NCBI GenBank assembly: GCA_015233395.1
Contig: JADFXV010000003.1
Location: 1 to 64,000 of the forward strand
Origin: Desulfovibrionaceae bacterium
GTDB lineage: Bacteria; Desulfobacterota; Desulfovibrionia; Desulfovibrionales; Desulfovibrionaceae
Direction of reading: 5' to 3'
Length of the DNA stretch: 64,000 nucleotides
Below, one piece after another: positions 22,655 through 56,903 of this stretch (position 1 is the stretch's first letter; each line of letters opens with the position of its first letter). Position numbers and translations under genes: made by a program. Under the pieces are notes generated by a model that was given only the letters and a program-made list of their open reading frames with translations, was not told where the DNA came from and searched no databases.

Positions 22655-24616
22655 TCAGGGCGCCGGGGAGATGGAAAACGACAGCGCCGGCAGGGGAGGA
22701 CGGTCCTCGCCCAGGCAGGTTTCGTCCACCTCGCCCGCAGTCAGCTCCAGGCGGAAAAAAAACAGGTCGCCGAACGTCCTGTAGCTCACAAGTCCGACCG
22801 AGGCGGCCTGGGATTTCGGGACGGCGATGCGAAGCCGGAGCGCATCGTCGCCGACGTCCACCCAGCCGCCGGTCATGCCCAGGCAGTCGCGGGCGGAAAC
22901 CAGAAAAGACACCGGGTTGCCGTGATCGACCTCGGCCTGGTCCAGACGGAAAATCTCGGGCGCATAGCCGCCGTTTTGCGTGGCGAAGGACAGGCGTTCG
23001 GCGTTGAAGGCCCGGGGAAAAAGGGTCACGTGCCCATAGCGCGCCAGGCCGAGCGGCAGCTTCTCCCAGGCGAAGGCGTGCTCGACGTCGATTCGGGCCA
23101 GCCGCTTGTCGACGCGCACGGTTTTGCGGATCGGCCCGAGCGGGGTTGCGATATCGCAGGCCAGGACGACGGTTTCGCCGCCGATGAGTATTTGCGGCTC
23201 CACGCGGCTTAAGTCGGCGATTTTGGGTTTGCCCAGGCGGTGCAGGACGAAATGCCCGGTGTAGAAATCGGCCCCGAAGGCGATATCGTCGAAATAGCCG
23301 TGGTCGAGCGTGCCGGCCAGGTATTCGGGCGACAATCCGGGAAAGCGCAGGGCGTCGATCGCCAGGCCCTTGTCGCGGTTGAGCCTGACTTCGATCTCTT
23401 CGCCTTTGACCGTGAGAAACCGGCCCGACTCCTCGACCTGGTCCCGGCGTCCGGCGGGCGCGAACGCGGGCCCAGGCGGCTTTTCCTCGCGGGCCGCCAA
23501 GCCCAGCCGGTCTTCAAGCGCGGCGATCCGGCCCAGATACCCTTGCCAGCGTTTTTCGGTGATATGGGTGCGCCAGTCGCTGCCCCACAGCAGGCACAGT
23601 TCGCGCCAGAGATCGTCGTCGCGCGGATGACGGTCCCTGAGGGTTTCGTAGATCCGGTGGCAGGCGGAATTGACGCGAAGATCGTCGCGGCCCGTGACCG
23701 CCCAGCGCAGGATGTTGTATTTTCCCTGCTTCTTGACCGGGATGGGGTTTTGCGGCGTTTGCAGGGTCAGGCGATTGCCCGCTCCGGGCTCGCCAAGCAA
23801 GGCGGGAAGCTCGCTCATCCCGAGGAAATAGAAGCGGTCGTCCCGGGCCAGGAGCCTAAGCAGGGTCTCGATGCGGACCCATTCCCCCTCACCGGCCAGG
23901 GGCGGGTCGGTATGGTGCCGGCCCGGCCTGAAATCGAACACCTCGGCGTCGCTGCCGTACAGGGGGAAGACCCGGGGGGTCTCGGCGAGATGGCCGGTCA
24001 GATAGGCGAGGTGTTCCTCGAGATCGATCTGCCCGTGGGCGTAGCGCTGGAATTTCTGGAAAGCGATGCAGCGGTTCCAGATCAGGGGGATCTTCGCGCC
24101 GCAAGCGCCGGCGGCGTATTGGGGCAGGTAGCCCATCTCCGGGTCCCAGCCGGGGTGGTGGCTGGCCGGATTTTCCCACTCCATGACGATCGAGCGGTAT
24201 CCCGCCGGCGGGTAGAGTTCGATCAGTCCGCCGGAATAGGCTTGCTCGTTGAGCAGAGCCGTTTCCGGGCGCAAGCCGAGCAAACGCTCGTAGACTTGGG
24301 CGCCCAGCCGCAGGTTGGCTTCGTTGACCGCGGCCGGAACCAGCGGGCCGATGATCTGATTGTAGCCGCTGCCGATGAAGGTCACCAGGCCGCTTTGCGC
24401 CAGTTCGCGCAACCGTTCGATCAGGCCGGGGTCGAGAGCGGCGATGATTTCAAGGGTCAGCCCCGAGGCCTCGATGCCCAGGGGCAGGCCGAGGCGTGAG
24501 CACAAATCGACGAGCGCCCCGTAGCAACGGGCGACGACCTGCGGCCGCATGTGCTCCTCGATCGAGGAATAGGCCAGGTTGCAGTGGAAAAAGGCGTACA
24601 GCCCGAGCCGTTTCAT
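22655..24616 (-). CDS. Glycoside hydrolase family 57-like protein
   Basis: Cytoplasmic protein of 653 residues with a GH57-type (beta/alpha)7 barrel in the first 350 residues. It begins FFHCNLAYSS (9-18) where amylolytic GH57 enzymes have a HQP motif. LLNEQAYS and YGSDAEVFDF sit where the nucleophile and acid/base segments are expected. The last 250 residues are beta-rich. GH57 enzymes cut or transfer alpha-glucans. In a glycan operon this one more likely acts as a transferase or trims an intermediate; no signal peptide is present. It is the last gene of the minus-strand unit and overlaps the isomerase by four bases (ATGA). Confidence 0.75.
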   Translation of the reverse strand: MKRLGLYAFFHCNLAYSSIEEHMRPQVVARCYGALVDLCSRLGLPLGIEASGLTLEIIAALDPGLIERLRELAQSGLVTFIGSGYNQIIGPLVPAAVNEANLRLGAQVYERLLGLRPETALLNEQAYSGGLIELYPPAGYRSIVMEWENPASHHPGWDPEMGYLPQYAAGACGAKIPLIWNRCIAFQKFQRYAHGQIDLEEHLAYLTGHLAETPRVFPLYGSDAEVFDFRPGRHHTDPPLAGEGEWVRIETLLRLLARDDRFYFLGMSELPALLGEPGAGNRLTLQTPQNPIPVKKQGKYNILRWAVTGRDDLRVNSACHRIYETLRDRHPRDDDLWRELCLLWGSDWRTHITEKRWQGYLGRIAALEDRLGLAAREEKPPGPAFAPAGRRDQVEESGRFLTVKGEEIEVRLNRDKGLAIDALRFPGLSPEYLAGTLDHGYFDDIAFGADFYTGHFVLHRLGKPKIADLSRVEPQILIGGETVVLACDIATPLGPIRKTVRVDKRLARIDVEHAFAWEKLPLGLARYGHVTLFPRAFNAERLSFATQNGGYAPEIFRLDQAEVDHGNPVSFLVSARDCLGMTGGWVDVGDDALRLRIAVPKSQAASVGLVSYRTFGDLFFFRLELTAGEVDETCLGEDRPPLPALSFSISPAP

Positions 24617-25455
24617 GGCGCGACGCTTGAAGCCGCCGGGGCGGGCGTGAAATCGCCCATGACGCTTCTGACGAAGTCCACTTCCGCCGCGAGCAGCCCG
24701 GCCCCGAGCCGGCCGGTGGGGATGACCCCCTCCAGGACGATGTTGACGCTGTCGAGCCGGCCAAGGGACGAAAGCCAGCCCCGGGTGAGCTCGGTGTCGA
24801 ATTGGACCAGGGAGTGGTTCGTCTCAAAACCCTCGGGCATGGCGCGCGGGTCGTAGAAATTCCCGGTCTGGGACAAGTGGATCTCGATGATCCTCGCGGC
24901 GAAGGCGTCGAGATAGGCCGCAAGCCCGGGTTCCCCGGCCGACAGCATTTCCTGGACGTGGGCCGTGTCCGGCACGAAGCCGAGAAAGTCGTGGGCCGCG
25001 AGCAGGGCTTCAATCTCGGCGAAGGTCTTGCCCCGGCGCGAAATTTTGCCCATGCCTTCCACGGCCACGTAGCATGTTTCCGAGGCCAGCGCGGCCAGGG
25101 GGGCGAAATCCGTGACCAGGTCGGGGTGGAAACAGTAGCCGGCGATGTTCGGGCAGGCCTTGTGCGCCCGGGCGAGCAGCGCCAGGGCGCCCTCGGTGTA
25201 GGCGTTGCAGCCGAAGGGGAGCTCGTAGGTGGAATGGGGGTGGATCAGCACGGTCTCAAACGAGCGGGCCAGGACGGCCAATTCTTCGATGACCGCGTCG
25301 CCGTTCGATAAAAAAAAGCGGTGGTTGAGCGTGATCTGGCAGCCGGCGCGAAGGGGCGCGACCAGCTCGGCGCAACGGCGCCGGACGTCGGACGGCCCCT
25401 GCCCGGGTTCGGGCAGAACCCCGGCGTCGTGCAGGAAGAGCTCAAACGGGGCCAT
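24613..25455 (-). CDS. Sugar phosphate isomerase/epimerase-like TIM barrel
   Basis: Xylose-isomerase-like TIM-barrel protein of 280 residues. Candidate divalent-metal ligands occur in the family's order: HPHS near 72, FHPD, VEGMG, DTAHVQE, EIHLSQ and a late VLEGVIP. The family includes isomerases, epimerases and dehydratases acting on keto sugars and inositols. It is flanked by the GH57 gene downstream (four-base overlap) and the ATP-grasp gene upstream (14-base overlap), so it belongs to the same pathway. The reaction is not known. Confidence 0.72.
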   Translation of the reverse strand: MAPFELFLHDAGVLPEPGQGPSDVRRRCAELVAPLRAGCQITLNHRFFLSNGDAVIEELAVLARSFETVLIHPHSTYELPFGCNAYTEGALALLARAHKACPNIAGYCFHPDLVTDFAPLAALASETCYVAVEGMGKISRRGKTFAEIEALLAAHDFLGFVPDTAHVQEMLSAGEPGLAAYLDAFAARIIEIHLSQTGNFYDPRAMPEGFETNHSLVQFDTELTRGWLSSLGRLDSVNIVLEGVIPTGRLGAGLLAAEVDFVRSVMGDFTPAPAASSVAP

Positions 25456-26686
25456 CGTGACCTCCAGGCCGTCTGGTGTTGAAGATCACTTCCGAGACCG
25501 CCTGCCTGGCGCGCGCGTCGGCCTCGTCGATCGTGGCGCCCACGGTCATGACGCAGCCGCCCCGGCGGGTATGGTCGGTCACGGCCTGCACGGCGTCGCC
25601 CGGGCCGAGGCTGAGGCGTTTGAGCACGATCCAGGGATGTCTGGACAGTTCCTCGTAGCCGGAGACGGACTCAATCAGGCCGGGTTCGGGGAAGAAAAAG
25701 CGGATGGCGACCGGCTGGCCGGGTTTGGGCAACAGGTCTTCCCGGCGCACGGGCTCGCCCACGGCCTGGAGGATGGCCTGCCTGGCCAGGTCGATCCCGG
25801 CGGCGATCGGGATGGAATCCGTGGCCGCGTAGCCGCCGCCCAGGCGGGCGGTGACCTCCAGGATCGTCACCTGGCCGCCGGACAAGACCAGATCGGCCTT
25901 GATGGGGCCGTTTTCAATGCCCATGGCCTCGGCGGCGCTCTGCATCGCCGCGCGCATGGCTTGCGCCTGCCCGGCGCTGAAGCGGCCCGGGAGCCAGCCG
26001 CCGTTTTCGATCACGTGAGGCGCGTAGCGGTCGAGATATTCGTAGTTGCGTCCGGAAAACATGGCGATCAGGGCCTCGCCGTCAAGCACCAGGCCCTCGG
26101 CGCTGACCTGGTCGCCTTCCACGAATTTTTGCGCCAGCACCCGGCCCTCGTCGCACATGGCCCGGGAGCGGGCGAAAAGCGCGGCCGCGTCCGAGCGCCG
26201 CGTGATCCGGAAAACGCCGCGCGCCCCCCGGTTGTCCGTGGGCTTGACGATGACCGGCAGGCCGCTCCGGCCGATGAAGGCGTCCAAGTCCTCGGGAGAC
26301 TCGACCTCGCGGCCTTCGGGAACGTTCAGGCCGCGTTCGCGAAAGAGGTCGTATTGCAGCCGTTTGTTGGCGGCGATGCGGGCCGAGTGCAAGGAGACGC
26401 CGGGAAGCCCCAGGGCCAGGGCGGCGGCGGCCACGGTGACTGGCGCGTCGTTGGCGATGGTGATCACCCCGCTGATCGGGCGCTCGCCGTGGGAGGCGAG
26501 GGCGGCGCGCACGGTGGCGTCCGGATCGCGGGTGCTGGCGATCAGGACCCGGTCGGCGAAGGCGAACCCCGGGGCGCCCGGGTTTTGATCCGAGCCGGTG
26601 ACTGAAAGCCCCATGTCGAGCGCCAGCCTATACAGCGGGACCTGTTCTTGTCCGGCGCCGACGATGAGCAGTCGTTTCGAACGCAT
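25442..26686 (-). CDS. ATP-grasp ligase
   Basis: Predicted carboxylate-amine or carboxylate-thiol ligase of 414 residues. An N-terminal Rossmann-like preATP-grasp domain (VGAGQEQVPLYRLA, 9-22) is followed by the ATP-grasp core with VIVKPTDNRGARGV near 145-158, and a late LEVTARLGGGY near 285 that holds metal-binding residues. The remaining C-terminus carries a further small domain. Such enzymes link an amino acid or a carboxylate to an amine through an acyl phosphate; here they could acylate an amino sugar. It stops 14 bases inside the isomerase and starts six bases after the SDR gene. Confidence 0.78.
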   Translation of the reverse strand: MRSKRLLIVGAGQEQVPLYRLALDMGLSVTGSDQNPGAPGFAFADRVLIASTRDPDATVRAALASHGERPISGVITIANDAPVTVAAAALALGLPGVSLHSARIAANKRLQYDLFRERGLNVPEGREVESPEDLDAFIGRSGLPVIVKPTDNRGARGVFRITRRSDAAALFARSRAMCDEGRVLAQKFVEGDQVSAEGLVLDGEALIAMFSGRNYEYLDRYAPHVIENGGWLPGRFSAGQAQAMRAAMQSAAEAMGIENGPIKADLVLSGGQVTILEVTARLGGGYAATDSIPIAAGIDLARQAILQAVGEPVRREDLLPKPGQPVAIRFFFPEPGLIESVSGYEELSRHPWIVLKRLSLGPGDAVQAVTDHTRRGGCVMTVGATIDEADARARQAVSEVIFNTRRPGGHDGPV

Positions 26687-26692
26687 GCGCGC

Positions 26693-27421
26693 CTAGACCC
26701 AGGCCCCGCCGTTGACCGAAACGGTCTGGGCGGTCATGTAGGAGGATTCGTCCGAGGCCAGGTACACGGCCGCCCCGGTCATTTCCTCGTAGGTGGCGAA
26801 GCGCTTGAGGAGCATGAGCGACAGCGCGGTTTCGCGCACCGCGGGCGACATGGTCTTTTCCGTGAACTCGCCGCCGATCACGCCCGGGGACAGGCAGTTG
26901 ACGCAGATCCCGCGTGGTCCCAGAAACCGGGCCAGATTGTGGGTTAGGGCCATGAGCGCCGCCTTGGCGCAGGCGTAGGAGGGAGTCCTTGGACCGCCGT
27001 ACTGTCCGGAGAGCGAGCCGATGTTGATGATGCGGCCCTTGTCGGCGATGAAGGGCAGAACCTCCTGGCAACAGCGGAAGACTCCGGTCAAATTGACGTC
27101 GATCACCTCGGACCATTCGGCGTCGGTCTGCTTGTCGAAGTCGTTGGTCCGGTTGACGCCCGCGTTGTTCACCAGGATGTCCAGCCGGCCGTAAACCGCC
27201 ACGGTCTTTTCATAGACCGCGCGGATCATGCCCCGGTCGCGCACGTCAAGAGGCATGACCAGCGCGGCGCCGATGTCCTTGGCCAGTTCGTGCGCCGCGC
27301 CCTCGTTTTTGGAATAGGTCACGGCGACCTTGCAGCCTTCGCGGGCAAAGGCCCGGGCGATGGCCGCGCCGAGTCCCCGGCTGGAACCGGTGACCACGGC
27401 GACTTTGTCTTGTAATCGCAC
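26693..27421 (-). CDS. Short-chain dehydrogenase/reductase (PtmA/FabG-like)
   Basis: Classical SDR of 242 residues. TGSSRGLGAA (11-20) binds NAD(P), VNNAGVN is present, and the catalytic serine in NIGSLSG is followed by Y-x3-K in SYACAKAAL. PtmA-type SDRs occur beside CMP-sugar synthetases in flagellar glycosylation islands, which is the closest contextual match; FabG is less likely because no fatty-acid gene is near. It starts at GTG 27421, with AAGGAG 9 bases upstream formed inside the end of the transaldolase gene. Confidence 0.82.
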   Translation of the reverse strand: MRLQDKVAVVTGSSRGLGAAIARAFAREGCKVAVTYSKNEGAAHELAKDIGAALVMPLDVRDRGMIRAVYEKTVAVYGRLDILVNNAGVNRTNDFDKQTDAEWSEVIDVNLTGVFRCCQEVLPFIADKGRIINIGSLSGQYGGPRTPSYACAKAALMALTHNLARFLGPRGICVNCLSPGVIGGEFTEKTMSPAVRETALSLMLLKRFATYEEMTGAAVYLASDESSYMTAQTVSVNGGAWV

Positions 27422-27424
27422 GGG

Positions 27425-28114
27425 TTATGCTCCTTGTTTGAGGCACGTCGATTCGTATTCCTGGCGCAGTTCGGGCGAAAGTTTGCACCAGCTTTGCATG
27501 AATTCGCGTTCGCCCAGGAAAAACATGGGGTTGTTGTAGACCTTTTCCCAGGTCGAGGGCGGCACGGTCAAGGCGTCGGCCGGGGCTTCGATGGCCTCCA
27601 CCAGATATTTCGGATTGCGGATGGACGCGGCCAGGATCTTGCTCGCCGAGCCCATGTTGTCCACGATGCGCCGCGCCTGGGCGATCATGGGGATGTTGTC
27701 CAGGCCGAAGTCCTCCACCCGGGCCACGAACAAGCTGATGTATTCGCTGCCGAGCTTGATGAAGGGCACCGCCTGGGAAGCGTGGAAGACCAAGGTGACG
27801 TTGACCCTGATTCCTTTTTTCTTCAACTCTTTGGCGCACAAAAAGCCTTTGCGGTCGGCCGGGATCTTGATCAGGATGTTGTCGCCCAGGGCGTTGAGCT
27901 TGACCGCCTGCTCGATCATCGCGGCCGGGTCGTCGAGCGTGACCTCGACCGAGATCGGGCCGCCCACCACGGCGGCGATGTCCTTGATCCGCCGGATCGG
28001 GTCCATGCCGCCCTGGCCGAGCAGGGCCGGGTTGGTGGTCACGCCGTCGACCAGGCCCAGAGCTTGCCAATGCTCGATTTCCGCGAGATCGGCGGTGTCG
28101 AGAAAGAATTCCAT
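27425..28114 (-). CDS. Transaldolase/fructose-6-phosphate aldolase-like enzyme
   Basis: Small class I aldolase of 229 residues in the FSA/TalC family. GVTTNPALLGQGG is at about 24-36, the Schiff-base lysine lies in ILIKIPADRKG near 85, and FHASQAVPF and SLFVARVEDFG follow. It should make or break a C-C bond between a dihydroxyacetone-type donor and an aldehyde. In an operon with a cytidylyltransferase and a keto-acid reductase it may build the carbon skeleton of an unusual sugar. Start ATG 28114 with GGAG 6 bases upstream; an in-frame start at 28174 overlaps the next gene and lacks one. Confidence 0.82.
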   Translation of the reverse strand: MEFFLDTADLAEIEHWQALGLVDGVTTNPALLGQGGMDPIRRIKDIAAVVGGPISVEVTLDDPAAMIEQAVKLNALGDNILIKIPADRKGFLCAKELKKKGIRVNVTLVFHASQAVPFIKLGSEYISLFVARVEDFGLDNIPMIAQARRIVDNMGSASKILAASIRNPKYLVEAIEAPADALTVPPSTWEKVYNNPMFFLGEREFMQSWCKLSPELRQEYESTCLKQGA

Positions 28115-28148
28115 AGCGTCTCCGTAAAGGCGGCGTCCGCCGCCGGGG

Positions 28149-29171
28149 TCAGGGTTGGTCGAAGAAAACCCCAAGCGAGGCGCCGACCTCGCCGATGATT
28201 TCGTGGCTGCGTTCGTCGAGCTCCACGCCGGAGGCGCCGAAGGTCTTCAGGTTTTCCCGTTCGATCTCGCCCGGCAAAAGGACGTGCGCGGCCCCTTCGG
28301 CCTTGGCCGATCCGGCGACGAGGCCGCAGAGCAGGTCCATGTCGGCGTCAAAATCCGCCTTGGGCCGAAACAGGTCCGGCTTGAGGGCCAAAAAGCTCAC
28401 GCCGTTGCCTTCCTTGTAGCCCGGAAACACCGAGCAGCGCGCGCCCGTGAAGACCCCGCCCATGATCTCAAGGAACAGGGCCAGGGCCGAGCCCTTGTGG
28501 CCGCCCATGGGCAGAATCGAGCCGCCGTCGTAGAAATCGTTCGGATCGGCCGTGGGCAGGCCGCGCTTGTCCTGGATCAGGCCTGGGCCGACGGTCGCGG
28601 ATTTGTTGCGGGCCACGTTGAGCTTGCCCTCGGCGATCGAGGCCGAGGCGAAATCGATTTCGAGGTCTCGGCCGGGGACGGAACAGGCCAGCGGATTGGT
28701 CCCGAAAATGCGTTCGCGCCCGCCGAACGGGGCCACGTTCGGGCCGCCGCCGTTGCAGAAGGCCAGGGCCAGAAAGCCTTTTTCCGCAGCCATGGCGGTG
28801 TAGTCGCCCAGTCTGCCGACATGGTAGAGGTCGCGGCAGCCGACCAGGGCCAGGCCGGTCTCCCCGGCCTTGCGCAAGGCTGTGTCCACGGCGAAGGCGG
28901 CGCAGACTTGGCCGAAACCCCGGTTGCCCGTGACCAGGGCGTGGGCCGGGCCCTCAAAGGCCACGGCCGGATCGGCGCCGGGGACAAGATCGCCCGAGCG
29001 CGCGGCCTTGACGTACTGGTTGATGCGCAAAACGCCGTGCGAGGCGTGTCCGGTCAGGTTGGCGTGGACCAGGCGCGTGGCCACGAACGCGGCTTTGTCT
29101 TGCGGAGCCCCGATGGCCAGAAACACCCTGCGCGTGAAATCGCGTAAACGGCCGGAATCGACGACAGGCAT
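28149..29171 (-). CDS. Ldh2/malate dehydrogenase family oxidoreductase
   Basis: NAD(P)-dependent 2-hydroxyacid dehydrogenase of the Ldh2/YlbC/ComC type, 340 residues. The catalytic-histidine segment HASHGVLRINQY is at about 42-53, with FCNGGGPNVAPFGG and GHKGSALALFLEIMGG further on. The family reduces 2-keto acids such as pyruvate, sulfopyruvate or ureidoglycolate. Its role here could be reduction of the keto acid of an ulosonic-acid-like sugar or supply of a hydroxyacid. It overlaps the cytidylyltransferase upstream as TGATG. The 34-bp gap to the transaldolase has no terminator. Confidence 0.82.
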   Translation of the reverse strand: MPVVDSGRLRDFTRRVFLAIGAPQDKAAFVATRLVHANLTGHASHGVLRINQYVKAARSGDLVPGADPAVAFEGPAHALVTGNRGFGQVCAAFAVDTALRKAGETGLALVGCRDLYHVGRLGDYTAMAAEKGFLALAFCNGGGPNVAPFGGRERIFGTNPLACSVPGRDLEIDFASASIAEGKLNVARNKSATVGPGLIQDKRGLPTADPNDFYDGGSILPMGGHKGSALALFLEIMGGVFTGARCSVFPGYKEGNGVSFLALKPDLFRPKADFDADMDLLCGLVAGSAKAEGAAHVLLPGEIERENLKTFGASGVELDERSHEIIGEVGASLGVFFDQP

Positions 29172-29905
29172 CAGGTTTTCTCCTTGTTGTCCCGGTTTGA
29201 AAGTTGCGAGTAGGCCGCCTCGGCCACCAGCAGATCGATGGGGCGGTCGATGTCGATGGAATAGATCGGATCGCGCATCATCAGGGGAAGGATCACGTCC
29301 CCGGAAACGGAATTCTTTTCAAATACGGCCGAGGGCCTGACGATGTCGAGCACGCCGTTGTGCCAATAGACCTTGGGCAACAGCTGGCGGGACATGTTCC
29401 AGGATTCGACGCCGTCAAGCCGGACGAAGGGAGCGAGGTAGCCGCCTTCGATGTTCCAGAGCTTGTACGGGGTGATGACGCTTTCGTTGACCGTGCGCAG
29501 GCAGTCGGCCTCCGGGTGGGCGCGCATCAGCTTGAGGCCTTCTTCGATCAGCCCGGCCGGGCGCAGCGGCGAGGTGGGCCGCAGCTGGACCACCAGCTCC
29601 GGGACAAACCGTTCGTTGTCGCGCAGCCACTCAAGGGCATGGCGGAAGACCGGATAATCCTGGACATGGTCGCGGGCCAACTCCTCCGGCCGCATGAACG
29701 GAACCTCGGCCCCGAAACTTCGCGCCGCCTCGGCGATCTCCGGGTCGTCGGTGGAGACGATGGTGCGTTCGACCAGCGGGCAGGCCAGGGAATACGCGAT
29801 GGAATGCGCGATCAGCGGCTTGCCGCCGAGCAGCGCGATGTTCTTCCTGGGGATGCCCTTGGAGCCGCCCCGGGCGGGAATCAGCGTGACGACGCGCGCG
29901 CTCAC
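29171..29905 (-). CDS. CMP-sugar synthetase, acylneuraminate cytidylyltransferase family
   Basis: Protein of 244 residues with the complete CTP signature LIPARGGSKGIPRKN (8-22) and STDDPEI (52-58), then VQLRPTSPLR (110-119), all typical of NeuA, PseF and PtmB. It should attach CMP to a nonulosonic or related sugar acid. It sits in the operon with SDR, aldolase and Ldh2 enzymes, which may build its substrate. GTG start at 29905 overlaps the stop of the radical SAM gene (GTGA). It differs from the PseF copy at 35894, so it probably serves a second activated sugar. Confidence 0.86.
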   Translation of the reverse strand: MSARVVTLIPARGGSKGIPRKNIALLGGKPLIAHSIAYSLACPLVERTIVSTDDPEIAEAARSFGAEVPFMRPEELARDHVQDYPVFRHALEWLRDNERFVPELVVQLRPTSPLRPAGLIEEGLKLMRAHPEADCLRTVNESVITPYKLWNIEGGYLAPFVRLDGVESWNMSRQLLPKVYWHNGVLDIVRPSAVFEKNSVSGDVILPLMMRDPIYSIDIDRPIDLLVAEAAYSQLSNRDNKEKT

Positions 29906-31350
29906 GGAGCCTCCGCGATTTCAAGGCCCGGCAGCAAGGAGGGGTCAAGACTGCATCCCTTGGCCACGGCGCCCGAGATCGAAGCGCGAAGCGAGGCGTC
30001 AAGCGGCTCCACCGCGTCCTTGAAAATCAGGATGGCCAGGTCGCGACGCGGGTCGTTCGAGCGCAGGTCGGCCAGGCAAAACGATTCGCCCGTGCGCTGC
30101 TTTTCCCGCAAAAACGCGGCCAGGCCGGAGTCAAGGGCAAAGGCGTTGGCCCAGCGCACATTGACGGTGGTGAAGCCGTCCTCCTGCCGGAAGCGGATTC
30201 TTTCGGGCGCGACGAAGCGTTCGCCCGCATCGATGGCTCGCAGGATTGCGCCCGGCAGAACCGGCTTGTAGGGCTTGCGCACGCCGCCTACGCCCTCGAA
30301 CAAAGGGTCGGGGCCGGACAACTCGCCAAAATAGGCGTAGGCGGCGCTGCGGCAGCCCGAGGCGCAAACGCCCAGATAGGCGCAACCCGCGCATTCTCCG
30401 TGGAGATAGCCGCCGTCGCGCCAGGCCCGCATGGCCTGAAACACCTCGCCGATCCCCTGGGTGAACACGTTGCCGTAGGAACGCTCTTCGTGGGTGCAGG
30501 CGCGGGCCGAGCCGTCCGCGCCGACGCACATGCGGTTGCCCCGCTGCGCCGGGCAGCCCCGGCCGACGAAATCCTCGTACAGCTCCAGATCCTCCAGAAA
30601 ACACAGGGGGTAGCTGATGAGCGTGCCGACGCCGATCCCGAAATCGCGTTTGACCGCCAATATCTGCGCCAGAACCTCGCGGGCGGCGCGTTTTTCCAGG
30701 CGCAGGTCGGTGGCCCGCACGTCCTTGACCCGGACCGAGGGGACCAGGCGGGTGGCGAAGAGCCGCTGCGCGCCCAGTTCGGCGCACAGCCGGCCGGTCT
30801 CGTACACGTGATCCTTGTTCGGCTCGGAGACGATCATGTTGACGCTGACCCGGATATCCGCCGCTCTTGCGGTTTTGACGCCGCGCTTGATCTTCTCCAG
30901 CGCGCCCTTGGAATTGACCATGTAATCGTTGGTTTCGGCATGGCGGGAATTGAGGCTGGTGAGCACGTGGTCGAGGCCGGCGTCGCGCAGCCGGGCGGCC
31001 TTCCCGGCGGTCAAAAGCATCAGGTTGGAATTGACGCTGGTGGAAAGGCCCGCCTCGGTGAAACGCTTGAGGGCGTAAACCAGGGTGTCAAAGCGCAGCA
31101 GCGGTTCGCCGCCGGTGAGAACCACGTGGAAGACGCCCTCGGCCAGAATTTTTTCGGCCAGCAGGTCGATGTCCCGGGGCTCCAGTCCGGCGGCCGGCGC
31201 GGCGTCTTCACCGCGCCAAAAATTGTAGCAGTGCCGGCATTTCATGTTGCACCCCGAGGTCAGCTCGAGGTTGATCATGATCGGCGCGGACAGGAGTTTT
31301 GGGTCGAAGGCGTCGCAGGGTACGCGCGAAGCGGGATCGCTGCCCATCAT
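29902..31350 (-). CDS. Radical SAM/SPASM protein with C-terminal extension
   Basis: Radical SAM protein of 482 residues. C34, C38 and C41 (GCNMKCRHC) bind the catalytic cluster, and GGEPLL follows. A SPASM region at about 265-345 carries a row of cysteines ending in ECAGCAYLGVCASGC, which should hold two auxiliary 4Fe-4S clusters. The last 110 residues (VRWANAFALDSGLAAFL...) look like a small winged-helix module comparable to PqqD-type domains; that part is uncertain. SPASM enzymes modify peptides, anaerobically mature sulfatases or oxidise sugar alcohols. The substrate here is unknown. Two ATG codons lie side by side (31350, 31347). Confidence 0.8.
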   Translation of the reverse strand: MMGSDPASRVPCDAFDPKLLSAPIMINLELTSGCNMKCRHCYNFWRGEDAAPAAGLEPRDIDLLAEKILAEGVFHVVLTGGEPLLRFDTLVYALKRFTEAGLSTSVNSNLMLLTAGKAARLRDAGLDHVLTSLNSRHAETNDYMVNSKGALEKIKRGVKTARAADIRVSVNMIVSEPNKDHVYETGRLCAELGAQRLFATRLVPSVRVKDVRATDLRLEKRAAREVLAQILAVKRDFGIGVGTLISYPLCFLEDLELYEDFVGRGCPAQRGNRMCVGADGSARACTHEERSYGNVFTQGIGEVFQAMRAWRDGGYLHGECAGCAYLGVCASGCRSAAYAYFGELSGPDPLFEGVGGVRKPYKPVLPGAILRAIDAGERFVAPERIRFRQEDGFTTVNVRWANAFALDSGLAAFLREKQRTGESFCLADLRSNDPRRDLAILIFKDAVEPLDASLRASISGAVAKGCSLDPSLLPGLEIAEAP

Positions 31351-31401
31351 GCAAGACCGCCGGTGAACCGGGCGGCCTTAGGGCGGCCGCTTCGGATTGG
31401 A

Positions 31402-31428
31402 TTGCCGCAATTATCCCAAAATAGGGCC
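31402..31428 (-). promoter_or_regulatory. Possible promoter upstream of the radical SAM/SPASM gene
   Basis: On the minus strand TTGTCA, 15 bases, then GATAAT preceded by TGG, an extended -10. The spacing is short for sigma-70, but the same arrangement recurs at two other places in the window. The position is approximate to a few bases. Confidence 0.3.
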
Positions 31429-31494
31429 GCTGACAAGGCGGCGGGCCGTTTGGCGCCTGCGAACGGCTGGATTTTCAGGCGGTCGTGCATCGCT

Positions 31495-32397
31495 TCACCT
31501 CTCCCAAAGAGACGGATTGAGTAACCGCGTAGGCATCCCCGGAAGGTTGCGCCACCAGAGCTCGACCAGTTCGGCCGGAAGCGGCCGGTCTTGAAACAGG
31601 CGCAGGTTCTCTTCGAGCTGCGCTTGGTCCTGCACGCCCATGACCAGGATCGCCTCCGGAAAAGTCTGGGCCACGACCCGGATGCAAAAGGCCTTGAAGT
31701 CCAGGCCGCGCCCGGCGGCGAAATCCTTGGCCGGGCGCAGGAAGCCCGCGGCCCAGTCCATGTTCGCGCGCTCAAGTCCCGGGCCGTCGAGCAACAACAG
31801 GCCTTGCAGGTAAATCGAGCGGGCAAAGACCGTAACCGCGTTTTGTCTGGCCTCGCCGGCCAGATCGGCCTCGATCCAGCGTTTGTCCAGGACGTTGACC
31901 GGAACCTGGACGATGTCCACCTCGGGCTCGCGCATCCAGTCCAGGGCTTGCTTCGGCTCGTAGCTGGAAATGCCGAACCGCCGGATCAGCCCGTCGCGCT
32001 TGAGCTCGGACACGGCCCGCAGAAGGCCCGGGCGCGAGCCTTGGTCCACCGCGCGATGCAGCATAAGCCCCCACAGGCTCTCGGCGCCAAGACGCGTAAG
32101 CGACGCGGCCACGGCCCGGCGTAGCGCCCCGGGCGCGGCGCACGCGAAATCCGGGGGCAGCTTGGTGATCACCCGGGCGTGCGGGGCCTGGCCGCCGCCC
32201 AGGGCTTGGCCCACGATCGCCTCGCTTTCGCCGTAGGCGAAGGCGGTGTCGAAAAAGCGCGCCCCCCTCGCGTACGCCAGCCGCAACAAGGCTGCGGCCG
32301 CTTCCCGGTCCGGGCGTCCGGCGAAGTTGGCCACGCCGTAGTCAAGGCCGAGCTGGACCGTGCCCAGGCAAAAACGGCCGAGGATGTCTTCTTGCAC
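31495..32397 (-). CDS. Aldo/keto reductase
   Basis: NADPH-dependent aldo/keto reductase of 300 residues. The catalytic tetrad is visible: D and Y in FFDTAFAYGESEA (about 45-57), K in VITKLPPDF, and H in LWGLMLHRAVD. It reduces an aldehyde or ketone, and the neighbouring sugar genes suggest a keto-sugar or its open-chain form. GTG start at 32397, nine bases after the stop of pseC, so it is probably cotranscribed with the pse genes upstream. A 144-bp gap separates it from the radical SAM gene. Confidence 0.85.
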   Translation of the reverse strand: MQEDILGRFCLGTVQLGLDYGVANFAGRPDREAAAALLRLAYARGARFFDTAFAYGESEAIVGQALGGGQAPHARVITKLPPDFACAAPGALRRAVAASLTRLGAESLWGLMLHRAVDQGSRPGLLRAVSELKRDGLIRRFGISSYEPKQALDWMREPEVDIVQVPVNVLDKRWIEADLAGEARQNAVTVFARSIYLQGLLLLDGPGLERANMDWAAGFLRPAKDFAAGRGLDFKAFCIRVVAQTFPEAILVMGVQDQAQLEENLRLFQDRPLPAELVELWWRNLPGMPTRLLNPSLWER

Positions 32398-32406
32398 CGC
32401 TGTCGC

Positions 32407-33546
32407 TCACAATGCGGCCAGGGCGCTCGCAAGCGCCGCAATGACCCGCTCTTGCTGGTTTTGGGTCAGATCCGGAAAAATCGGCAGGGACAAGATCCGC
32501 TCGAAGGCCTGTTCGGCCGCCGGGCACAGTCCCTCGCCCAAGCCGAACGCGCGCCGGTAAAACGGCTGCAAATGCACCGGGATGTAGTGCACGTTGACCC
32601 CGACGCCGCTTTGCCTGAGCGTGGCGAACACCCGGTCGCGATCGGCGCGCCCGAAGCCGTCGCCGAGTTTGACGACGTAGAGGTGATAGGCGTGCGCGAC
32701 GCCTTGGGCCACGGACAGCGGTTTGATCCGGTCCATGCCCGCGAGTTCGCGGTCGTAGCGCGCGGCGATTTCGCGGCGCCTGTCCACGAAGGCCCCAAGC
32801 CTGGCGAGCTGGCTGAGTCCCAAGGCGCAGGCGATGTCCGAAATGCGGTAGTTGAAGCCGGGTTCGTGGATTTCGTAGGTGTAGGAGGCGGCGCTTTCGC
32901 GATCGGCGAAGCTCGTGGTCATGCCGTGGTTGCGGAAGCGCCGCACGCGCTCGAGAAGCTGCGGATCGGCGGCGGTGACCATGCCGCCCTCGCCGGTGGT
33001 GATGTGCTTGACCGGATGAAAGCTGAAGGCCGAGAGATCGGCCATGGCCCCGGCCATGACGCCGTCGCGCGAGGCGCCCAGGGAATGGCAGGCGTCGGCG
33101 ACCAGCGCCAGGCCCCGAGATCGGGTAAGCGCGCCGAGGGCCGCGTAATCGCAGGGCTGCCCGGCGTAATCCACGGCGATGACGGCCTTGGTGCGCGCGG
33201 TGATGCGCCGCGCGACCGAGCGCGGATCGATGAGCAGGGCGCCTGGCTCGACGTCGGCGAACACCGGGGTCGCGCCCTGATAGACCACGCAGTTGGCGGT
33301 GGCGGCGAAGGTCATCGCCGGGACGATCACCTCGTCGCCCGGGCCCACGCCAAGCGCGTGCATGATGGCGTGGAGCGCGGCCGTGCCGCTGCTCACGGCC
33401 GCGGCCCCGTTCGCCGTGACGGCGTCCGCGAAGGCGCGCTCGAAGTCCGCGACGCGCGGCCCGCAGGTCAGCCAGCCCGAGCGCAGGGTTTCGACCACCG
33501 CCTGGATGTCGCGTTCGTCCATGCCGTGCCGGCCGTAAGGAATCAT
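32407..33546 (-). CDS. pseC: UDP-4-amino-4,6-dideoxy-N-acetyl-beta-L-altrosamine transaminase
   Basis: DegT/DnrJ/EryC1-family PLP aminotransferase of 379 residues, the second step of pseudaminic acid synthesis: it aminates C4 of the keto sugar made by PseB. The internal-aldimine lysine is K180 in FHPVKHITTGEGG, with VSSGTAALH at 51-59 and DACHSLGA near 151. It starts at 33546, overlapping the pseB stop by four bases (ATGA). The pseB-pseC pairing is characteristic of flagellar and surface pseudaminic acid pathways, which supports the assignment over other DegT enzymes. Confidence 0.9.
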   Translation of the reverse strand: MIPYGRHGMDERDIQAVVETLRSGWLTCGPRVADFERAFADAVTANGAAAVSSGTAALHAIMHALGVGPGDEVIVPAMTFAATANCVVYQGATPVFADVEPGALLIDPRSVARRITARTKAVIAVDYAGQPCDYAALGALTRSRGLALVADACHSLGASRDGVMAGAMADLSAFSFHPVKHITTGEGGMVTAADPQLLERVRRFRNHGMTTSFADRESAASYTYEIHEPGFNYRISDIACALGLSQLARLGAFVDRRREIAARYDRELAGMDRIKPLSVAQGVAHAYHLYVVKLGDGFGRADRDRVFATLRQSGVGVNVHYIPVHLQPFYRRAFGLGEGLCPAAEQAFERILSLPIFPDLTQNQQERVIAALASALAAL

Positions 33547-34520
33547 GAGGCCAGCATGCTCTTGAGCTCGTCGATGCCGAGCTTCCAGGCGTTGGTGTTG
33601 GAACAATACTCGAAGCCCTCGGGGACCGGGACGCTGCCCGCCAGCGCGAAATCGCGGGCAAAGAACCGGAAGGCCGGCTTGATGAGGTAGAAATCCGGAA
33701 ATTCGACGGTGTTTGGGGCCTCGTCGCGCGGGATCATGATCTCGTGGAGCTTTTCCCCGGGGCGGACGCCGACGATTTCGACGCGGCAATCCGGGGCCAC
33801 CGCCTTGGCCAGATCCAGAATGTTCATGCTCGGGATCTTGGGTATGAAGGTCTCAGCCCCGACCATGCGGCCGATCGAGGAGAGCACGAAGTCCACGCCC
33901 TGTTGCACGGTGATCCAGAACCGGGTCATCTCGGGATGGGTGACCGGAATGACGCCCGACGGGCGCAGTTCGCGAAAAATCGAGACCACGCTGCCCCGGC
34001 TGCCGATGACGTTGCCGTAGCGCACCACCGAGAATTTGGTCTCCCCGGAGCCCACGTAGGCGTTGGCGGCGATAAAGAGCTTATCCGAACACAATTTGGT
34101 CGCGCCGTAGAGGTTCAGGGGATTGACCGCCTTGTCCGTGCTCAGGGCGATGACCTTTTTCACGCCGAGGTCGATGGCCGCGTCGATGATGTTGGTCGCC
34201 CCGATGATGTTGGTCTTGATCGCCTCGTAAGGGTTGTATTCCGCCGTGGGCACCTGTTTGAGCGCGGCGGCGTGGATGATGACGTCGACGCCGGCGAAGG
34301 CGCGCCGCAGGCGGTCCTTGTCGCGCACGTCGCCGATGAAGTAGCGCACGGCCGGATATTGCGATTCCGGAAAACGGCGGGCCATGTCGAATTGCTTGAG
34401 TTCGTCGCGGCTGAAAACGATGACCTTCTTGGGCTTGTGGCGCAACAGCAGGGTTTCGACGCATTTGCCGCCAAAAGACCCGGTGCCGCCGGTGATCAGG
34501 ATCACTTTTCCGTCTATCAT
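33543..34520 (-). CDS. pseB: UDP-N-acetylglucosamine 4,6-dehydratase (inverting)
   Basis: First enzyme of the pseudaminic acid pathway: removes water and inverts C5 of UDP-GlcNAc. The 325-residue extended SDR has TGGTGSFGG (10-18), EYNPYEAIKTNI (94-105), ALSTDKAVNP (125-134) and the catalytic Y138-x3-K142, all standard for PseB. Its length is that of FlaA1/PseB enzymes without membrane segments, not of the large membrane-bound WbpM type. It lies 24 bp downstream of the degenerate cytidylyltransferase, in one minus-strand unit with pseF. Confidence 0.92.
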   Translation of the reverse strand: MIDGKVILITGGTGSFGGKCVETLLLRHKPKKVIVFSRDELKQFDMARRFPESQYPAVRYFIGDVRDKDRLRRAFAGVDVIIHAAALKQVPTAEYNPYEAIKTNIIGATNIIDAAIDLGVKKVIALSTDKAVNPLNLYGATKLCSDKLFIAANAYVGSGETKFSVVRYGNVIGSRGSVVSIFRELRPSGVIPVTHPEMTRFWITVQQGVDFVLSSIGRMVGAETFIPKIPSMNILDLAKAVAPDCRVEIVGVRPGEKLHEIMIPRDEAPNTVEFPDFYLIKPAFRFFARDFALAGSVPVPEGFEYCSNTNAWKLGIDELKSMLAS

Positions 34521-34544: not shown

Positions 34545-35897
34545 TTAAGTTAACAATACGGATTCGTTGTTTTTTAAGGCCCGCAACTTGGCGAGGTATT
34601 TGAGCCGGTCAAACGCCCCGTTGATGTGAACGGACCGGGTCCGGGGCACGACGCAGTAGCCGGCCCGGGACTCCGCCAGGATGCCGTCAAGGCCGGAGAG
34701 CGCCTCTTGACGCGCGATCAGAAACGATCCGTCCGGCTCGTAGACCTCGGGAAACTGCTGACGGCCCTGGATGATTTCGCCCGTGTCGCAGCGCACGGGC
34801 CGCCCGTTCTCGTCGAAGCGCCACTGCTGCGGGTCGTGGGGAAAATTGTCCCCGTACACGCAAAAGTCCGAAGCCACCTCGACCCGCTGGCAGGCAAGGC
34901 CGTCGCAATCGTCCGGGAGACCCGGCAGGCGAACCGGGTCAAGCTCCCCTGGGTCTTCGATCTCCAGGCTCTCCAGGATGCGTCCGGACCGCAAGGCGGC
35001 CAGGCGGTAGCGCGTCCGGCCGGACAAGCCGGGGCCGAAGAGCCGTCCCGGCAGAAGAAAGAGATCTTTCCCCGCCTCCTTTTTCACGATGCAGGCCATT
35101 TCCGGGCCGGCCGGGGCAAAAGGGGCGACCGCGACGGCCGCGGCGTCCGGGGGAAGGCCGTCTAACAGTTCGGCCGCAACGAGCAGGCGGGCGAAAAGCC
35201 CATCGGAAGTGAGCCACAGGGTCTGGCGCTCTTCAAACGAGTCCGGCTCGCTCAGGGCGGTCAGGACGTCGCGGCGCTCGCTGTAACGCAACGTGCGCGT
35301 GTAGAGTCCGGCAGGCGATGCGGGACCATCCAGGAAGCGCGACGGCAGCAGAAAGGGCCGGGTGGCGCGGTAGCGTCCCGGGGGGAGCTGCGGCAGGACG
35401 AAATCTGGGTCGAGGAAGGCCGCCAGGCGGACGGACGACGGTTTGGACTTGAACAGGGCCTTGAGCTGGCAGGGATGATCCAGGCTTTGTACGACGCTGA
35501 GCAGGACGCTCGAATCGCCGGAGGCGAATCGAGCGATGGCTTGGCCGATGGCCTGGCCGATGATCCGGCTGGACAGCAAAGGATTGGCGAAGTCCACGCG
35601 CATGACGTCGCTTGCGGCCGGGATATCAAGCGCGGCGAGCGCTCCCGGCGGCGGCAAAAGCGCCGCGAGCGCGCGCGGCGCGCCGGCTTCGGGCGCGGGC
35701 CAAGGCGGGCACAAGCGGATATCGAGCCTTGGCCGCGCCAATTGTTCGGCCCAGGCGGCGTTCGTGGCCAGCACGACCCGGTCAAGGCCGGCGGCGGCGA
35801 GCAGGTTGTCGAGCGCGAGCCCAAGCAGCCGGAGTCCTTCGTCCGAGGGCCAGAAGCGGTCGTCTTCCGGGAAAAAAGCGGGCACGACCGCGATCAT
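34545..35897 (-). CDS. Degenerate cytidylyltransferase-like protein
   Basis: Protein of 450 residues whose ends resemble CMP-sialate synthetases but which lacks their CTP loop: the N-terminus reads MIAVVPAFFPEDDRFW where PARGGSKG is expected. The middle keeps weak family features (VMRVDFANPLLSS near 125), and the C-terminus has RQQFPEVYEPDGSFLIARQE and RSVHINGAFDRL, the distal end of the NeuA fold. It is about 200 residues longer than the usual 230. Catalysis with CTP looks unlikely; a regulatory subunit, an altered specificity or a nonfunctional paralogue are options. It overlaps pseF by four bases (ATGA). Confidence 0.6.
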   Translation of the reverse strand: MIAVVPAFFPEDDRFWPSDEGLRLLGLALDNLLAAAGLDRVVLATNAAWAEQLARPRLDIRLCPPWPAPEAGAPRALAALLPPPGALAALDIPAASDVMRVDFANPLLSSRIIGQAIGQAIARFASGDSSVLLSVVQSLDHPCQLKALFKSKPSSVRLAAFLDPDFVLPQLPPGRYRATRPFLLPSRFLDGPASPAGLYTRTLRYSERRDVLTALSEPDSFEERQTLWLTSDGLFARLLVAAELLDGLPPDAAAVAVAPFAPAGPEMACIVKKEAGKDLFLLPGRLFGPGLSGRTRYRLAALRSGRILESLEIEDPGELDPVRLPGLPDDCDGLACQRVEVASDFCVYGDNFPHDPQQWRFDENGRPVRCDTGEIIQGRQQFPEVYEPDGSFLIARQEALSGLDGILAESRAGYCVVPRTRSVHINGAFDRLKYLAKLRALKNNESVLLT

Positions 35898-36586
35898 CGG
35901 CTCGGTCCGCCGGTAAAATCGAACAGGCCGCCGCGAATGATCTCCTCGGCGAGATAAAAATCTTCGAACGTGTCGATGTCCACATCGTACACCGGGTCCT
36001 CGACGACGTGCAGGTAGGTCTTGTTTTCGGTTGCCGGCGCGAGCAGGCCTCCCTGGAGCAGGCCCGTGGCGCGGTAATACGTTTTCCCCGGATGTTTGCG
36101 GGAAAGGCCCGGCCGGTCCAGCAGGGGCGCCAGGTTGCCGTTGCGGGCGGAAAAGACGCTCGACGGGTCGTGGACGCGGCGCACGACGCTGGAGACATGG
36201 CTGTACCCCTGTCCGAGCTTGCCCGTCAGGGCGCGGATGAGCGCCGGGGTGCGGAAGGGATGCGTCGGAAACATGACGAGTACGGCGTCCGGGCGGTAGC
36301 CTTGGGCGGCCAGCGATTTTTCGACATGGCCGACGGCGTCGGAGAGCAGGGCGCAGTCCGTGGCCAGGCCCTTGGGCCGCAAAAAGGGGACTTCGGCGCC
36401 GCATTCGCGGGAAATCGCGGCGATTTCCCGGTCGTCGGTGCTCACGACCAACCGGTTGATGCATCCGGAAAGTATGGCGGCCTCGATGGTGTAGGCGATC
36501 AGCGGTTTGCCGCAAAGCGGCCGGATGTTTTTTCCGGGCACTCCCTTGGACCCGCCGCGCGCCGGAACGATTGCCAGTACTTCCAT
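35894..36586 (-). CDS. pseF: Pseudaminic acid cytidylyltransferase
   Basis: CMP-sugar synthetase of 230 residues, with the intact signature IVPARGGSKGVPGKNI (6-21), VSTDDREI (49-56) and VMFPTHPFR (104-112). From position beside pseB and pseC its substrate is most likely pseudaminic acid, making the CMP-activated donor; the sequence alone does not separate it from other nonulosonic acids. First gene of the unit pseF - degenerate copy - pseB - pseC - aldo/keto reductase. No ribosome-binding site stands out. Confidence 0.82.
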   Translation of the reverse strand: MEVLAIVPARGGSKGVPGKNIRPLCGKPLIAYTIEAAILSGCINRLVVSTDDREIAAISRECGAEVPFLRPKGLATDCALLSDAVGHVEKSLAAQGYRPDAVLVMFPTHPFRTPALIRALTGKLGQGYSHVSSVVRRVHDPSSVFSARNGNLAPLLDRPGLSRKHPGKTYYRATGLLQGGLLAPATENKTYLHVVEDPVYDVDIDTFEDFYLAEEIIRGGLFDFTGGPSR

Positions 36587-36700: not shown

Positions 36701-37663
36701 TCAGGTCGCCTTGACGGCGTGCAGTTCCAGCGACGTGGGCGGCAGGGTGCCGGTTTGCACGAGATGGTCGTCCAAAAACTTGAGGAACCGGGCCAGGGCG
36801 TACCGGTTTTTCCCTCGCAGGCCGCCGATGAGCTTGTCGATGAAGGCGTCGGAAAAGCGCTTCTCCCGTATGGCGAAGAGCGCGCCGACCTGGGCGATGA
36901 TGGTCTGAGCGTCGTCGGTGGATTTATCCATCGGCGACTGCGCGTGATCGTCCTCCAGGGTGTATTCCCGGAAGATTTTGTCCACTGCGGACTCCCACTC
37001 GGAGGCAGTCCAGGTCCGGTCGAGCTTGGTCTCGAATTTCTCCCAGGTCGGCAGGACCAGGCGCAAAATGGCCGCCATCCGCGCCGATTCGCGGGTGAAA
37101 TGCCGGCGCACCGGCTCGGACAGGAGCAGGTACCCGCCGGGCTTGAGCCAGGAGCGCGCCTTGGCGAGCACGCCCGCGAGATCGGGCAGATGGTGCAGGC
37201 TGCGGAAGAAAACCACGCTGTCGAAGCATTCCCTGTCCCACTCGATGTCCGCGACATCGGCGCACACGTATTGGAGCGAACCGAAGGATTCGCGATACGG
37301 ATTTTGGTCTTTGAATCGTTCGGCGATGGCGATGTTTTCCGGGGAAAGGTCCAGGCCCACGACGTCCAGGCCGTACCGGGCCATTTCAAGCGACAAAAGA
37401 CCGTAGCCGCAGCCCAGTTCCAGCACCCGTCCGCCGCGCTCCCGGGCCAGGTCGATGACAAAGCGCAGCTTGGGCATCCAGTGGATGTCCACGAACTTCG
37501 GATCGCGCCAGACGTTGTTGTAGAACCAGGGCACCCGGCGCAAACGCCTCAGGTCCGGCACGAAGCCGTGGGCCAGGCGGTCCTTCGCCCTTTTGTCGAA
37601 GGCGGTCTTTTCGCCTTCGATGAGCGCCCGCGCGCCGTGGGCCGGTTTTGATCCGCCTTCCAT
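36701..37663 (-). CDS. SAM-dependent methyltransferase, class I
   Basis: Methyltransferase of 320 residues. LELGCGYGLLSLEMA is the SAM-binding motif I near residue 77, followed by VVGLDLSPENI and VVFFRSLHHLP. The C-terminal half has no recognised acceptor-binding domain. It lies between the pyruvyl transferase gene (upstream on the same strand, 60-bp gap) and pseF (114-bp gap with a promoter candidate). Target unknown; O- or N-methylation of a sugar is likely from context. Confidence 0.8.
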   Translation of the reverse strand: MEGGSKPAHGARALIEGEKTAFDKRAKDRLAHGFVPDLRRLRRVPWFYNNVWRDPKFVDIHWMPKLRFVIDLARERGGRVLELGCGYGLLSLEMARYGLDVVGLDLSPENIAIAERFKDQNPYRESFGSLQYVCADVADIEWDRECFDSVVFFRSLHHLPDLAGVLAKARSWLKPGGYLLLSEPVRRHFTRESARMAAILRLVLPTWEKFETKLDRTWTASEWESAVDKIFREYTLEDDHAQSPMDKSTDDAQTIIAQVGALFAIREKRFSDAFIDKLIGGLRGKNRYALARFLKFLDDHLVQTGTLPPTSLELHAVKAT

Positions 37664-56853: not shown

Positions 56854-56897
56854 ATATTTGGGCCGCATTTGGGCCGTATTTGGGCAGCATTTGGGAG
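56854..56897 (+). repeat. Four 11-bp tandem repeats directly upstream of paralogue 2
   Basis: The unit is RYATTTGGGCC with small changes: ATATTTGGGCC, GCATTTGGGCC, GTATTTGGGCA, GCATTTGGGAG. The last unit ends in GGGAG, which is the ribosome-binding site of the gene starting at 56904, so the array supplies the translation signal. Unit number could affect leader length. Confidence 0.88.
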
Positions 56898-56903
56898 AAA
56901 TCC

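Follow-up and report, generated by a model that had tools for sequence, protein, structure and literature searches.

A transaldolase-containing gene cassette in a putative nonulosonic-acid glycan locus of a Desulfovibrionaceae bacterium

A row of genes around a transaldolase

In a 64,000-nucleotide stretch of DNA from a Desulfovibrionaceae bacterium (assembly GCA_015233395.1, contig JADFXV010000003.1, positions 1 to 64,000 of the forward strand; hereafter the window), the minus strand carries eight genes between 22655 and 31350, among them those for a transaldolase of the TAL/FSA family, an SDR reductase, an ATP-grasp ligase and a GH57-like protein. These four constitute a core cassette that recurs in other genomes, and the row looks like a horizontally spread kit for building or decorating an unusual sialic-acid-like surface sugar. 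The genes of the row are listed below by coordinate.

22655..24616, minus strand: GH57-like protein, 653 amino acids (aa), core gene; PF03065 at 45.6 bits, N-terminal part only
24613..25455, minus strand: TIM-barrel protein, ketose-3-epimerase-like by its AlphaFold2 model, 280 aa, extension gene; orthologues in loci L066 and L068
25442..26686, minus strand: ATP-grasp ligase, 414 aa, core gene; ATP-grasp and LAL_C2 domains (Pfam)
26693..27421, minus strand: SDR reductase (Pfam), 242 aa, core gene, the most conserved of the core genes
27425..28114, minus strand: transaldolase, TAL/FSA family, 229 aa, core gene; PF00923 at 149.7 bits, the sequence used in the family tests including one codon 5' of the ATG (28115-28117)
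28149..29171, minus strand: Ldh2-type 2-oxo/2-hydroxy acid dehydrogenase, 340 aa, extension gene; PF02615 at 309.6 bits
29171..29905, minus strand: CMP-acylneuraminate-type cytidylyltransferase 1, 244 aa, extension gene; PF02348 (CTP_transf_3)
29902..31350, minus strand: radical SAM protein, 482 aa, extension gene; PF04055

All eight genes had been recognized at these places in an earlier interpretation of 22655-32397 from the letters alone (the sequence-only reading), which did not list an aldo/keto reductase gene within the same interval (31495-32397). Their GC content at third codon positions (0.83-0.87, compared to 0.40-0.50 at second positions) indicates that they are coding. From the radical SAM gene to the GH57 gene the intergenic spacing ranges from -14 to +34 bases, in agreement with the overlaps and small gaps described earlier; in the order of transcription the values are -4 (radical SAM/cytidylyltransferase 1), -1 (cytidylyltransferase 1/Ldh2), +34 (Ldh2/transaldolase), +3 (transaldolase/SDR), +6 (SDR/ATP-grasp), -14 (ATP-grasp/TIM-barrel) and -4 (TIM-barrel/GH57). 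Upstream, the row runs on to 36586 with genes for PseC, PseB, a 447-aa protein and a second cytidylyltransferase, and thus holds two CMP-acid synthetases (CTP_transf_3).

Conservation of the core cassette and its partners

Nine other loci (L065 to L073) encode an SDR that is 74-91% identical to that of the window over the C-terminal half, whereas the next relatives in the SDR scan reach 43%; over the full window protein the identity is 68-74%, with L073 holding only part of the gene. These counts are lower bounds, since they rest on the best 80 of 153 SDR relatives and on a contig scan that needs exact peptide patterns, and two genomes, G812 (as L065) and G785 (taken for the genome of L073), were not counted as additional. 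All nine loci are contigs of metagenome-assembled genomes titled Proteobacteria, Desulfobacteraceae, Acidobacteria, Krumholzibacteriota, Deltaproteobacteria (two), Campylobacteraceae, Acidimicrobiia and Nitrospirae, titles that may be imprecise. The transaldolase gene adjoins the SDR gene in all nine, and an ATP-grasp gene lies within about 3 kb of the SDR gene in eight; in the ninth, L073, the contig ends inside the SDR gene, and ATP-grasp with GH57 after it is found on a different contig of that genome. A GH57 homologue is encoded in each of the nine genomes, in eight of them on the same contig as the cassette. Few genomes of their groups have an SDR orthologue, namely 2 of 395 in the phylum, 1 of 150 in the class of G632 and 3 of 48 in the order of G299. 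Apart from a single PseB match of 32% in L139, no other cassette homologue was found in the 71 lower-ranking SDR loci (L074-L144). Neither SDR nor GH57 gave a match in viral contigs, the SDR had no match at E<=1e-60 among plasmids, and the transaldolase as query returned no loci in the contig scan with its exact peptide patterns.

In the GH57 protein, residues H11, N13, E49, E124, D223 and E225 are identical in all ten genomes; E124 and D223 are, from their position in the motifs, the probable catalytic Glu and Asp of a glycosidase of this family, and the protein matches the 4-alpha-glucanotransferase 1k1w at E=1.9e-12. The view that the ATP-grasp protein is a ligase was upheld, since it is of the carboxylate-amine ligase type, carries LAL_C2 and has a PurD-like protein and L-amino acid ligases as its nearest solved relatives.

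The transaldolase keeps Lys85, the Schiff-base lysine, as well as Asp6 and Asn28 in both of the lineages described below. A Phe in place of a particular active-site Tyr marks transaldolases over aldolases acting on free dihydroxyacetone, and at the positions of Gln59 and Tyr131 of E. coli FsaA all 10 cassette transaldolases and all 28 other transaldolases compared carry Glu and Phe. By its residues the protein would thus be a MipB/TalC-type transaldolase (TAL_FSA domain, Lys85, Asp6, Asn28, Glu59, Phe131), and FSA activity on free dihydroxyacetone is disfavoured. Hence the earlier label 'FSA-type' is apt for the subfamily, but not for the two FSA-typical positions, Gln59 and Tyr131, which have a role in FSA (PMC13259622). 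The cassette transaldolases fall into two lineages, TAL-A (window, L065, L069, L072 and L073; 57-59% identical to the window protein; support 100/100) and TAL-B (L066, L067, L068, L070 and L071; 34-38%; support 100/97), both of which adjoin the same SDR family. Their union against the 28 other transaldolases has a support of only 81/87 with a program warning of long branches, and the sequences leave a single common origin of the two lineages undecided. The window ATP-grasp protein groups with those of L066 and L068 at 100/100 and the window SDR with that of L066 at 95/97, and both of these loci carry TAL-B. The simplest reading of the trees is that one lineage exchanged its transaldolase, which would imply that both types do the same job.

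The genes found upstream of these eight include probable partners in nonulosonic acid formation.

31495..32397, minus strand: aldo/keto reductase; PF00248; homologue in L067 and L071
32407..33546 (start inferred from the model match), minus strand: PseC-type aminotransferase; TIGR03588 at 437.3 bits, cut-off 423.5
33543..34520, minus strand: PseB-type UDP-GlcNAc 4,6-dehydratase; TIGR03589 at 488.6 bits, cut-off 407.75
34545..35891, minus strand: 447-aa protein between cytidylyltransferase 2 and PseB; no Pfam or NCBIfam match
35894..36586, minus strand: cytidylyltransferase 2, PseF-like; PF02348; PseF model at 130.7 bits, below cut-off
36701..37663, minus strand: SAM methyltransferase, extension gene; PF08241
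48344..49222, minus strand: NeuB-family synthase lacking a SAF domain, 292 aa, probable partner; PF03102 at 181.4 bits
49233..50540, minus strand: class III aminotransferase adjoining NeuB, probable partner; PF00202; 62-66% identical in L067, L071 and L072

The proposal of a pathway without NeuB does not hold for the window, since the PF03102 profile detected two NeuB proteins in this genome, one of them encoded at 48344-49222 on the same strand, some 12 kb upstream of where the row starts. This synthase belongs to a subfamily present in 7 of the 10 cassette genomes (the six others at 58-60% identity, all on the cassette contig), and its gene adjoins that of GH57 in G626 and G628. A C-terminal SAF domain (PF08666) was detected in none of the seven members but in the NeuB of G299 used as control, and by domain content the subfamily thus appears to differ from canonical NeuB/PseI. 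Taken together, a linked NeuB-family synthase (same contig in 6 of the 9 other genomes) and CMP-acid synthetases mark the window as a putative nonulosonic-acid locus, and the link between NeuB and the cassette is strong but not absolute. PseB and PseC are present in the window, G626, L069 and L070. Those of the window pass their curated cut-offs, whereas the synthase stays below that of PseI (148.1 of 340.25 bits), as do cytidylyltransferases 1 and 2 below that of PseF (126.8 and 130.7 of 205.7 bits).

With regard to the target of the sugar, Maf glycosyltransferases are encoded in 6 of the 10 cassette genomes, and in L069 (as read from its sequence) and L070 the cassette has flagellin genes as neighbours, so that flagellin is suggested as target in the loci with Maf. 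No Maf match was obtained in the genome of the window or in G626, G627 and G631. Since the window holds several glycosyltransferases, a surface polysaccharide is the more likely target here.

Relatives of the synthase were also seen in other settings. L190 (1-4513), which comes from the viral collection and whose genes look phage-like by sequence, carries an SpsF-like cytidylyltransferase gene followed by that of a 290-aa NeuB 56-57% identical to the cassette subfamily, and in L191-L206, which include many viral-collection contigs, NeuB relatives at 33-47% lie beside PseB and/or PseC homologues. L199 has homologues of a split transketolase near NeuB and an aminotransferase. Two fusions were noted, one of NeuB to about 340 further residues (L171 1498-3390, in G628) and one of an SpsF-like cytidylyltransferase to a GT28-C-like part (L163 7215-9008, in G626).

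In three of the ten genomes (window, L066 and L068) the core is accompanied by an extension of five genes, encoding the methyltransferase (56% identical to orthologues that adjoin the radical SAM genes of L066 and L068), the radical SAM protein (52-53% to both loci), cytidylyltransferase 1 (63% to L068, 46% to L066), Ldh2 (46-52%) and the TIM-barrel protein (35-38%), and the gene order from radical SAM to TIM-barrel in L066 is that of the window. The trio of transaldolase, Ldh2 and cytidylyltransferase, on which the sequence-only reading was built, is thus indeed co-inherited, but as an optional add-on to the core. As the functional core itself the trio had to be rejected, since seven of the ten cassette genomes, searched in full, gave no Ldh2 match at E<=1e-10. 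Among 85 genomes in the order of G626 and 80 in the phylum of G628, the radical SAM protein was found in one each, in both cases the genome already known. Ldh2 had only relatives below 40% in 247 genomes of the order, and both proteins had only distant relatives among plasmids. The best solved match of Ldh2 is sulfolactate dehydrogenase. The TIM-barrel protein has no Pfam or NCBIfam match, and its profile gave no match to a PDB sequence. Its AlphaFold2 model (mean pLDDT 82) most resembles D-tagatose/D-psicose 3-epimerases (240 residues aligned at 2.8 A, Z 21.6), with UlaE as top match in Foldseek, and E133, D163, H166, H193 and E242 are invariant in all three proteins. According to the model the protein would have a ketose 3-epimerase-like fold with a Glu/Asp/His/Glu metal site (E133, D163, H193 and E242), which we take to correspond to the ligands of D-tagatose 3-epimerase.

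Loci with another carbon-carbon enzyme

Among 72,556 plasmid records, 89 matched NeuB and a single one exceeded 60% identity; the same record, pDCAR1 of Solidesulfovibrio carbinolicus (NZ_CP026539), gave the only GH57 match. Its locus encodes PseC, PseB, GH57 (42%), a two-subunit (split) transketolase, an SDR (45%), PseF and NeuB (63%), further two methyltransferases, an ATP-grasp protein (39% to the window, 51% to L067 and L071) and a protein labelled PseG-like on the basis of a weak Pfam match. Neither a transaldolase nor Ldh2 is annotated in the 41 kb shown. The frame of PseB, PseC, GH57, ATP-grasp and NeuB is therefore common to pDCAR1 and the window, whereas the transaldolase and its SDR are replaced by the split transketolase and another SDR.

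A similar arrangement is described for the sfmABCDE operon of Shewanella oneidensis, which, by the gene content given in the paper (PMC3765264), shares with the cassette and its partners a NeuB-domain protein (290 aa), an ATP-grasp protein, a methyltransferase and an SDR together with a carbon-carbon enzyme, but has IlvB in the place of the transaldolase and lists no GH57, Ldh2, radical SAM or TIM-barrel gene. According to the same study, PseB/PseC homologues are encoded elsewhere in that genome, loss of sfmA-D shifts flagellin to about the unmodified mass, and the modification consists of a 274-Da nonulosonic acid and a further group of 236-264 Da (PMC3765264). The window also has PseB, PseC and PseF-like cytidylyltransferases in common with the pseudaminic acid pathway (PseB-C-H-G-I-F), but its synthase is not PseI by the curated model, and transaldolase, SDR, ATP-grasp and GH57 are additional. 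With E. coli FsaA the transaldolase shares the TAL/FSA family and the Schiff-base lysine, the differences being Glu59/Phe131 in the window and Gln59/Tyr131 in FsaA. In its working order the pair of transaldolase and SDR can be likened to YerE/YerF of yersiniose synthesis, a branched-sugar pair in which a carbon-carbon enzyme and then a reductase act on a sugar, although YerE/YerF employs a thiamine diphosphate enzyme on a CDP-keto sugar and no transaldolase.

Two observations concern the surroundings of the row. Directly downstream of the GH57 gene (20386-22573) lie genes for a DUF4910 protein and a methyltransferase with a GC content of about 52%, whereas their surroundings have about 65%, which points to this pair having been acquired separately and recently; a DUF4910 gene is also present in the pDCAR1 locus. 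Farther upstream, two proteins of 598 aa (53381-55177) and 595 aa (56880-58667) with similar starts and no Pfam match are encoded on opposite strands and flank a B12-binding radical SAM gene.

A possible change of the carbon chain of nonulosonic sugars

The reading that we favour, though tentatively and with somewhat less than even confidence, is that of a nonulosonic-acid glycan locus in which the cassette of transaldolase, SDR, ATP-grasp and GH57 modifies the sugar. We infer a scheme in which the SAF-less NeuB would condense phosphoenolpyruvate with an aldose provided by PseB, PseC and other enzymes, and the cytidylyltransferases would activate the product with CMP. The transaldolase, apparently recruited from central metabolism to change the carbon chain of the sugar, would take a three-carbon dihydroxyacetone unit off a ketose phosphate and pass it to an aldehyde acceptor, and the SDR would reduce the new ketone, so that ketol transfer and reduction together would alter the carbon chain of the nonulosonic sugar or of its substituent. 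Before or after these steps the ATP-grasp enzyme may join a carboxylate to an amine in an amide bond, and GH57 may cleave or transfer a glycosyl bond. Where the extension is present, the ketose could be epimerised by the TIM-barrel enzyme, and further steps could be contributed by cytidylyltransferase 1, Ldh2, the methyltransferase and the radical SAM protein.

Transfer of a ketol or acyl unit of two or three carbons is common to transaldolases, transketolases and IlvB-type enzymes. Because the three share one position, each together with an SDR, we propose that the loci contain a ketol-transferase and reductase slot that extends the carbon chain in a nonulosonic-acid glycan. A bolder and rather improbable generalization is a modular slot in a constant frame of NeuB, GH57, ATP-grasp and PseB/PseC, which would take a transaldolase (three carbons added), a transketolase (two) or an IlvB-type enzyme (two, as acetyl), each with its matching reductase, and would thereby define a widespread but unrecognised class of sialic-acid-like sugars whose skeleton is changed by swapping one gene pair. 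Several points weigh against these interpretations. The transketolase swap was seen in one locus, and the IlvB case is drawn from the gene content given in the Shewanella paper (PMC3765264). The acceptor of the transaldolase, like the substrates and product of the scheme, is putative, and GH57 is left without an evident role although its catalytic-type residues are conserved in 10 of 10 genomes. The NeuB gene of the window lies outside the row, and in G625, G629 and G633 NeuB is only 35-36% alike, which indicates that the SAF-less type is not obligatory. The joint grouping of TAL-A and TAL-B in the long-branched trees is weak, and a housekeeping share is possible for the window transaldolase, given that no other transaldolase match at E<=1e-30 was found in its genome (G000).

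Alternatively, transaldolase and SDR, joined by the TIM-barrel epimerase where the extension is present, might supply the aldose for the SAF-less NeuB, and the product would then be an ulosonic acid of unusual chain length instead of a decorated pseudaminic-like acid. The subfamily, besides lacking SAF, has 'GAEFxxGHCWLP' where the SAF-bearing relative differs, suggesting a different acceptor, and the resemblance of the TIM-barrel model to ketose 3-epimerases is also in favour of this explanation; however, PseB and PseC, the usual source of the hexosamine precursor, are present in the four loci named above, and cassettes also accompany a SAF-bearing NeuB (G299/G629), so that we consider it unlikely. 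Slightly more doubtful is the route of the sequence-only reading, even when narrowed to the extended form, in which Ldh2 and cytidylyltransferase 1 would make a second CMP-activated acid without NeuB; in its most natural version, Ldh2 might oxidise an aldonic acid to a 2-keto acid that cyclises and is activated with CMP. Ldh2 adjoins cytidylyltransferase 1 in all three extended loci and has no match in the other seven genomes, and a second cytidylyltransferase is nearby in the window and G626 (by Pfam) and, as an SpsF-like protein by sequence look, in G628. On the other hand, a dedicated NeuB shares the contig in all three extended loci, and no close relative of Ldh2 with a sugar-acid substrate was found, its best solved match being the sulfolactate enzyme. 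Moreover, CMP synthetases of this kind use the anomeric keto group of the sugar acid, which a reduction by Ldh2 would remove.

It is less probable still that the carbon-carbon enzyme, the SDR and Ldh2 build a hydroxy acid that the ATP-grasp enzyme attaches to an amino group of the nonulosonic acid. Such a function would fit the LAL_C2 domain and the L-amino acid ligases among the nearest solved relatives of the latter, as well as the separate 236-Da group with extra methyls on the Shewanella glycan (PMC3765264), but the product of a transaldolase is a ketose and not an acid, and Ldh2 is missing in most of the cassette genomes. Finally, an ordinary pentose-phosphate transaldolase located in a glycan locus by chance would be expected to show the family membership and the active-site residues found here, all as in the 28 other transaldolases, and the protein is the sole transaldolase detected in its genome at the threshold given above. 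Yet this explanation is highly improbable, as ten genomes from distant groups have the gene next to the same SDR, TAL-A forms a separate long branch (100/100), and G299 has a second transaldolase (36%) elsewhere.

In the open literature (subscription papers and preprints being outside the scope) no on-topic paper was found on transaldolase with nonulosonic or pseudaminic acid, on transaldolase with cytidylyltransferase and flagellin glycosylation, or on Ldh2 in such loci; titles retrieved for transketolase with flagellin glycosylation were not on this subject, and no published study of the pDCAR1 glycan locus was seen. Immune systems and phages recognise nonulosonic acids, which cover flagella and cell surfaces, and the variety of these acids is commonly attributed to differing acyl and amino groups on a nine-carbon skeleton that stays the same. 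Should a transaldolase or transketolase indeed act in these loci, variation would extend to the carbon skeleton, and the synthesis of higher-carbon sugar acids would gain new enzymatic tools. Our analysis defines the gene pairs concerned and points to a cultured host, Solidesulfovibrio carbinolicus, as well as to a genetically tractable analogue, the Shewanella sfm operon.

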